From positions 1 to 33,429 of the forward strand of contig CAMBBW010000008.1 of assembly GCA_945863425.1 (NCBI GenBank): 33,429 bases of DNA, in the 5' to 3' direction. Below are positions 22,509 through 23,851 of this stretch, piece by piece. Positions within the stretch are counted from its first letter, which is position 1. Each line of letters begins with the position of its first letter. The stretch is from Lishizhenia tianjinensis. GTDB lineage: Bacteria > Bacteroidota > Bacteroidia > Flavobacteriales_D > Crocinitomicaceae. A program made the translations under genes and the position numbers. The notes below the pieces were generated by a model, which did not search any database, was not told the DNA's origin, and worked only from the letters and a program-made list of their open reading frames with translations.

Positions 22509-22747
22509 GCGCCTATCAAAAAATAAATCTCGCTTTTTTAAACTTATTTCAAACCATTCATTTATTTGATTATTTGCCTCATTTACAGAGACATAATAAA
22601 TTTAAAACATTTACAAACGAATAATAATCGACAATAAACGATTATTTACCGAATAAAGTTTTGAGGTGATGGAAACTTTGCAGAGTCAATTCGAATCAAA
22701 AACGAAAAAGGACACAACAATTTTTTCAAACCTTAATTTTTACAAAC

Positions 22748-23125
22748 ATGAATGCACTAAGAAACAAAGTGAGTTTGATCGGTAGGCTGGGCGCAAATCC
22801 AGAAGTAGTAACATTTGAAACAGGAAAAACGCTAGCCCGTTTTACGGTTGCAACAAATGAATCATACAAGTTAAATGGTGTATGGCAGGAACAAACACAA
22901 TGGCATACAATAAATGCCTGGGGGAAAGTGGCTCAACGAATGCAAAAAACGCTTCACAAGGGACAAGAAATCGTACTAGAGGGGCGGTTAGTTAATCAAA
23001 ACTATGAAACGAAAAATGGTGAAAAACGATTTGTCACCTTCGTTGAAGTAAATGAATTCTTGGTGTTAAAAGCGGCCAATGAAAAAACGTTAGAAAAAAC
23101 AACTCAAAAGACGAATAATAAATAA
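22748..23125 (+). CDS. Single-stranded DNA-binding protein paralog 1
   Basis: 125 aa OB-fold SSB; NKVSLIGRLGANPEV, QWHTINAWGKVAQRM, GQEIVLEGRLVNQNYETKNGEKRF. No acidic C-terminal tip. Confidence 0.93.
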   Translation: MNALRNKVSLIGRLGANPEVVTFETGKTLARFTVATNESYKLNGVWQEQTQWHTINAWGKVAQRMQKTLHKGQEIVLEGRLVNQNYETKNGEKRFVTFVEVNEFLVLKAANEKTLEKTTQKTNNK

Positions 23126-23136
23126 CACCAACAAAA

Positions 23137-23457
23137 ATGAATTACGTAAATCTAATAGGAAAAGCGCGATCTGCCGCACAGTTTATAGAACTTGATAATG
23201 GAAAAAAACTAGTAAAGTTCACGATGTCAACCAAAGAAACTTATTTCGACGAAAAGGGCAAATCCAAATCCAGGGACACCTGGCATACGCTAACAGCTTG
23301 GGGTAGATGGGTGAAAGTTCTTGAAGAGTTAGAATTAAAAGGGACTAACCTAGCAATCGAAGGCAAAATAGTAAGCCGGTTTTATAAAGCGGGCGGCGTT
23401 CCTAAATTAATATCAGAAATTGAAATCAACGACTTAACCTTAATCCCAAATAATTAA
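23137..23457 (+). CDS. Single-stranded DNA-binding protein paralog 2
   Basis: 106 aa OB-fold SSB; NYVNLIGKARS, DTWHTLTAWGRW, NLAIEGKIVSRFY. No acidic C-terminal tip. Confidence 0.88.
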   Translation: MNYVNLIGKARSAAQFIELDNGKKLVKFTMSTKETYFDEKGKSKSRDTWHTLTAWGRWVKVLEELELKGTNLAIEGKIVSRFYKAGGVPKLISEIEINDLTLIPNN

Positions 23458-23471
23458 TAAAACCCTCACAA

Positions 23472-23798
23472 ATGACAACAGTAAGAAATCACATCACACT
23501 CATTGGCAACATTGGTTCATCCACTCAGATAACTCGTTTTGAAAATGGTAAGAGCATTGCCCGATTTAATTTAGCAACCGATAACACCTATAGAAGTAAT
23601 AGCGGGAAATTTAAAAAAGACGTAGAGTGGCACCGCGTTTTTGCTTGGGGAAACATGGCTGAATTTATTGAAAAATATAGCGAAAAGGGTAAAAAAGTCG
23701 CCATACATGGCAGGCTTGTGAACCGCTCCTATTTATCACAATCCGGTGTTAAAAAAAGCATCACAGAAGTTGAAGTGAGGCAGATCATCGGGTTATAA
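23472..23798 (+). CDS. Single-stranded DNA-binding protein paralog 3
   Basis: 108 aa OB-fold SSB; NHITLIGNIGSSTQITRFENGK, EWHRVFAWGNMAEF, KVAIHGRLVNRSY. No acidic C-terminal tip. Confidence 0.92.
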   Translation: MTTVRNHITLIGNIGSSTQITRFENGKSIARFNLATDNTYRSNSGKFKKDVEWHRVFAWGNMAEFIEKYSEKGKKVAIHGRLVNRSYLSQSGVKKSITEVEVRQIIGL

Positions 23799-23816: not shown

Positions 23817-23851
23817 AAAAAAGCAGTCTAATCAAACGGACTGCTTTTTTT
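23817..23851. terminator. Bidirectional Rho-independent terminator between the ssb cassette and lspA
   Basis: AAAAAAGCAGTC-loop-GACTGCTTTTTT, with A/T tracts on both sides suitable for either strand. Confidence 0.85.

Follow-up and report, generated by a model that had tools for sequence, protein, structure and literature searches.

Three tail-less single-stranded DNA-binding protein genes form a conserved accessory operon behind a presumed operator in Crocinitomicaceae

Tail-less paralogues of the bacterial single-stranded DNA-binding protein (SSB) are a known family. In Bacillus subtilis, SsbB is tail-less, and in Anabaena two truncated SSBs consisting of the OB fold only, Alr0088 and Alr7579, are found beside the canonical tailed All4779 (PMC3976300). 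Staphylococcus aureus possesses a tail-less SSB as well, SsbC (PMC5945547), while in Streptococcus pneumoniae SsbB stores imported single-stranded DNA (ssDNA), a reservoir function for which its acidic tail is dispensable (PMC3128108). The question of why many bacteria keep additional SSBs devoid of the acidic tip has been poorly answered outside Firmicutes. In this article, a cassette of three such genes, S1, S2, and S3, is described from Lishizhenia tianjinensis and its relatives. No description of the S1-S2-S3 triplet was found in open-licence papers, and a fixed three-member operon composed of old, divergent clades and equipped with a conserved operator is, as far as the searched literature shows, a new variant of the family.

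The cassette lies on the forward strand of a 33,429-nucleotide stretch of DNA, hereafter referred to as the window, and comprises SSB1 (S1, positions 22748 to 23125, 125 aa), SSB2 (S2, 23137 to 23457, 106 aa), and SSB3 (S3, 23472 to 23798, 108 aa). The original prediction, made from the sequence alone, was that of three consecutive OB-fold SSB genes encoding 106-125 aa, and this observation is confirmed as real: S1, S2, and S3 match Pfam family PF00436 with 95.5, 50.0, and 93.9 bits, respectively, all above the curated cut-off of 26 bits, and the WH...AWG core attributed to them can be read in each. The gap of 11 nt between S1 and S2 was given correctly, whereas that between S2 and S3 measures 14 nt instead of 13 nt. 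The proteins stop where the OB fold ends, with the C-termini KTTQKTNNK, LTLIPNN, and VRQIIGL just as first reported, and none of them carries the DDDxPF-like acidic-hydrophobic tip that follows a flexible linker in canonical SSBs. All three are basic, with pI values of 9.4-10.2 compared with 5.3 for the canonical SSB of the same genome. S1 extends into a short lysine-rich tail, a variable segment that might carry an interaction of its own, S2 belongs to a family-specific clade, and each paralogue keeps its own invariant residues, exemplified by GKKVAIHG and the C-terminal RQIIGL in S3. AlphaFold2 produced confident OB-fold models of S2 (pLDDT 92.4) and S3 (pLDDT 90.0), for which the top PDB matches are all SSBs with a TM of about 0.8-0.9, and a profile search with all three paralogues found the structure of B. 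subtilis SsbB (PDB 3vdy).

The operon is closed by an intrinsic terminator at positions 23817 to 23850 of the forward strand, which consists of a 13-bp stem including its A/T arms, an 8-nt loop, and a U-run, and overlaps the 3' end of the convergent lspA gene. Its folding energy of -15.8 kcal/mol (z = -6.1) bears out the strong terminator first reported after the triplet; the automated terminator scan made no call at this site, which was found by folding instead.

The source metagenome-assembled genome (MAG; 2.56 Mb, 86% complete) contains five PF00436 genes, two of which lie outside the cassette, on contigs C23 and C32. The gene on C23 adjoins a gldE-like gene and encodes a canonical SSB of 154 aa with the C-terminus DDILPF, in line with the expectation that the replicative SSB would be encoded elsewhere. 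OB-only paralogues therefore occur beside a tailed SSB in this genome, as is characteristic of SsbB-type proteins, and the cassette is neither the sole nor the universally conserved ssb locus. Some near-complete relatives keep the canonical SSB but have no cassette, and the triplet is therefore not a housekeeping set, as had been proposed. The fifth SSB gene, on C32 (G000, positions 396-845, L004), is convergent to recG and encodes a protein of 149 aa with a pI of 4.9 and the acid-rich end DESEF; similar proteins of 142-185 aa are present in most family genomes among those listed, and represent a second family-wide SSB type.

When relatives were searched without bias for PF00436 proteins, most genomes of the genus proved to contain two or three short SSB genes in a cluster, and the loci read in these relatives carry S1-S2-S3 or S1-S2, always in one order. 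The complete triplet is present at 68 of the 80 named loci and S1-S2 at 11, while the remaining locus, from Brumimicrobium aurantiacum, combines S1-S2 with a third copy that is placed beside S3 in the phylogenetic tree. At one locus (L075), the S2 protein is identical to that of the window. When 399 genomes of the order were searched with an S2 profile, matches at E <= 1e-35 were obtained in Crocinitomicaceae only, and the best matches outside the family across the class reached about 1e-29 to 2e-29; judged by these profile matches, S2 is confined to Crocinitomicaceae. The complete chromosome of Fluviicola taffensis (G138) carries S1-S2-S3 at 912.1-913.1 kb (L186), and the occurrence of the triplet in closed chromosomes indicates that it is neither an assembly artefact nor a decaying set, just as its conservation across many species excludes chance. 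Of 115 loci, 92 have a gap between S1 and S2 that does not exceed 30 nt, and in 44 the two genes overlap or abut. Counted over distinct proteins, 26 of 31 canonical SSBs end in the canonical tip, compared with none of 89 S2 or 71 S3 proteins and one of 139 proteins labelled S1, which is a misassigned canonical SSB (L197). Between the window and a related genome (G029), dN/dS amounts to 0.09 for S1, 0.02 for S2, and 0.03 for S3, with 0.02-0.11 for neighbouring genes, and other species pairs mostly give 0.01-0.13, values that point to strong purifying selection on the cassette. Rather than being unique to one strain and composed of decayed members, the triplet is thus conserved in both the genus and the family.

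Several further features were observed at these loci. At loci with S1-S2 only, the position of S3 is often taken by an ORF6N-domain gene in the same orientation; at L128, L131, L134, L138, L139, and L142, this gene (cluster c12) lies 3' of S2. In many species, two adjacent related proteins of 460-530 aa are encoded downstream of S3 and convergent to the cassette (L035, L037-L041, L049, L050, L054, and others), and the two that were tested have no Pfam match. The public MAG records behind L092, L117, L132, and L151 carry the cassette under the unlikely names Chryseobacterium, Actinomyces, Polynucleobacter, and Planktophila, and are probably mislabelled.

The cassette is found in many unrelated gene neighbourhoods across species, with flanking genes that include shikimate dehydrogenase, CreD, TonB, and histidine kinase; since these genes are unrelated and differ between species, the attempt to derive a function from them was dropped. 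Such differing surroundings, together with the frequency of divergent SSBs in phages, could speak for a set derived from phages or mobile elements, for example, SSBs for anti-defence or element replication. This origin is nevertheless highly improbable, given that the cassette resides in complete chromosomes across the family, that phage or integration genes are not consistently adjacent, that no S2 relative was confirmed among viral contigs, and that the phage matches to S2 show at most 32% identity among the matches listed.

The phylogenetic tree separates the short tail-less SSBs from canonical SSBs (support 100/99) and resolves the in-family S1 proteins as one clade (98/88), the S2 proteins as another (100/98), and a core S3 clade (99/97, or 99/87 with the Brumimicrobium copy). 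S2 and S3 are sister clades (100/88), and the pair in turn has as its sister the second short SSB found in basal genera (96/86); the alignment comprises only about 116 columns, and the deep forks are therefore uncertain. Local triplication, which the original prediction had proposed to examine by phylogeny, is supported by this tree as tandem duplication within the locus. The simplest history would involve two successive tandem duplications of an order-wide short tail-less SSB, the first giving rise to S1 and the ancestor of S2 and S3, and the second to S2 and S3. In other Flavobacteriales, the short SSB is a single-copy gene at loci L059-L064, and other families possess independent copies of it (L056, L057, and L058). 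Recent independent tandem copies of this kind, such as the three similar ones in G050 (L056), would suit a simple amplification, in which extra copies supply more of a single accessory SSB and have no distinct roles; for the cassette, this is quite improbable, considering that S1, S2, and S3 share just 29-38% pairwise identity, fall into separate old clades, and, being under strong purifying selection, each retain invariant residues of their own. Those residues, the fixed gene order with its tight coupling, and the nested presence of S1, S1-S2, and S1-S2-S3, in which S3 never occurs without S2 among the loci read, are also consistent with an obligate hetero-oligomer of the three proteins, for example, a mixed tetramer, that would bind ssDNA in different modes and be a bacterial analogue of multi-subunit SSBs. 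An obligate complex is unlikely, however, as S3 is dispensable at about one in seven loci, where only S1-S2 is present, and basal genera and other families possess versions of one or two genes, indicating that the ancestral unit worked alone.

Although the flanking genes differ, the 120 nt upstream of S1 are conserved. In the window, this region contains an operator-like direct-repeat array with a spacing of ~10.5 bp, located at positions 22603 to 22664 of the forward strand by a profile match and by alignments of upstream regions. The array reads ..TTTACAAACG AATAATAATCG ACAATAAACG ATTATTTACCG AATAAA, with CG steps at 22618, 22629, 22639, and 22650, and its consensus is TTTAAnCG nTTACAAACG AATAACAATCG ACAGTAAATG ATTAATAACCG AATAAA, in which the CG steps are 10 or 11 bp apart, followed by the conserved AACTTTGCA-GTCGA. 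Downstream of the array, the promoter-like element AAACTTTGCAGAGTC (22673 to 22687, forward strand) includes AAACTTTG, which resembles a -7 box, and then a conserved GTC; CTTTGC is nearly invariant in the family alignment of upstream regions. AAACTTTG, which matches the -7 box of Bacteroidota (TAnnTTTG) in all but one letter, may act as a -7 element. No clear -33 box is present at the usual distance from it, and the cassette promoter is presumably activator-dependent. OmpR/PhoB-type regulators use direct repeats spaced one helical turn. A scan for sigma-70 promoters gave chance-level matches only, and a match to the promoter-core pattern on contig C6 was dropped, as it sits within a coding region.

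Genomes were searched with two profiles, R1, which covers the array and the promoter, and R2, which covers the array alone. R2 has a single match in the genome of the window, at 22603-22664 (E 9.7e-16). The cassette is the best R1 site in every cassette-bearing genome searched, almost every genome has one strong array site, located at the cassette, and no strong R1 site is present in the cassette-less genomes G021, G002, G114, and G126. R2 also matches upstream of short SSBs in basal genera and two other families, sequences that had not gone into its construction (L059, E 8e-9; L057, E 8.5e-5). Weak matches of either profile (E > 0.001) away from SSB genes have unrelated genes alongside and were discarded as chance. 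The conserved array ahead of each cassette is new here.

Beyond SSB genes, the array is located just before the gene of a XerA/integron-integrase-type tyrosine recombinase in three genomes (G178:C21:17570, L249; G213:C16:68043, L243; G220:C44:1315, L244), on the 5' side of a disrupted relative in G049, and some 230 bp ahead of recQ, a helicase gene, in G198 (C3:621238-621278, L248). It is present at 4 of the 30 recombinase loci tested and is missing upstream of the majority of these recombinase relatives; as read from these matches, the link between array and recombinase is occasional, yet recurrent in one gene family. Contigs C1 and C2 of another genome (G207) contain thirteen tyrosine recombinase matches, mostly in frames of 300 aa, which are probably copies of a multiplying mobile element.

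A dedicated natural-transformation set, that is, a counterpart of Bacillus SsbB that would be induced during competence and guard imported ssDNA until its use by DprA/RecA, is a somewhat doubtful possibility. The cassette proteins are tail-less like B. subtilis SsbB, whose role in competence has been described (PMC3128108, PMC3976300), and competence genes are missing more often where the cassette is missing. Among 18 cassette-less genomes, a count from which G230 (SSB fragments at contig ends) and G322 and G330 (one short SSB each) were set aside, comEC is missing in 4, versus 2 of the 62 others (Fisher p = 0.02), and dprA in 3, versus none of 62 (p = 0.01), both tests ignoring kinship. However, three of the four comEC-less genomes in this group belong to one genus, and comEC is kept in the other 14 of the 18, with dprA likewise kept in most cassette-less genomes, such that loss of comEC and dprA tracks cassette loss weakly. 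Furthermore, no com genes adjoin the cassette at the loci read, no array match at E <= 0.02 lies at comEC or dprA in the genomes searched, and the cassette does not have the regulatory site in common with com genes that is typical of the SsbB type. On the sequence evidence, recombination in the wider sense would fit the array that is shared with recombinase and recQ genes better than competence does.

The reading that we prefer, and to which we assign about an even chance, is that of a regulated stand-alone accessory SSB operon for the bulk coating of ssDNA during recombination or DNA uptake, with no recruitment of the SSB interactome. Fixed in Crocinitomicaceae and built by repeated tandem duplication of a short, tip-less SSB present across Flavobacteriales, the operon would be switched on under a particular condition through the helically phased repeat array, the presumed site of an activator. 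The three basic tail-less OB-fold proteins, each of which is expected to bind ssDNA, would then coat it in bulk and, by analogy with other tail-less SSBs, would sequester it without recruiting the replication and repair partners of the acidic tip of canonical SSB. The likeliest setting may be ssDNA arising during recombination, either from DNA that has been taken up or from damage or mobile elements, as suggested by the same array ahead of a tyrosine recombinase or recQ gene in some relatives. In this freshwater and marine family, the triplet probably serves recombination or DNA uptake and not replication. A more specific proposal, in which S1, S2, and S3 form a complex for recombination or uptake under a so far undescribed regulator of the 10.5-bp array that also drives the integron-type recombinase and recQ in some species, is distinctly unlikely; if true, it would amount to an ssDNA-handling regulon of Bacteroidota. 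An entire family in which three tip-less SSBs are maintained in one unvarying operon with a single conserved operator, and whose member Fluviicola taffensis has a sequenced type strain, makes it possible to test the inducing signal, the partners, and whether one complex or three proteins are at work. The operator also offers an entry point to a regulon for ssDNA or recombination in Bacteroidota.

Comparison with known systems places the cassette among accessory SSBs. B. subtilis SsbB is likewise short, restricted to the OB fold, tip-less, and second to a canonical SSB, but it is a single, competence-induced gene, whereas the cassette is an operon of three divergent paralogues that has a conserved operator of a different kind and a weak link to competence. 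The Anabaena proteins Alr0088 and Alr7579 are similar in being truncated OB-only SSBs alongside a tailed SSB; they differ in being encoded by two separate genes, with no operon or conserved operator described. S. aureus has three SSBs, of which the accessory SsbB and SsbC lack the acidic tail (PMC5945547), as in the cassette-bearing genome, although these are Firmicutes proteins not described as a tandem operon and without a family-specific triplication. S. pneumoniae SsbB, which retains the acidic tail EEEELPF and for which competence induction is proven, offers a parallel as an accessory SSB that coats imported ssDNA, a role that the cassette proteins may have by analogy. The short SSBs of other Flavobacteriales (L059-L064), despite being encoded by one gene or by two to three independent copies and not including members of the S2 and S3 clades, belong to the same tail-less clade as the cassette and, in two families (L057 and L059), have the repeat array upstream.
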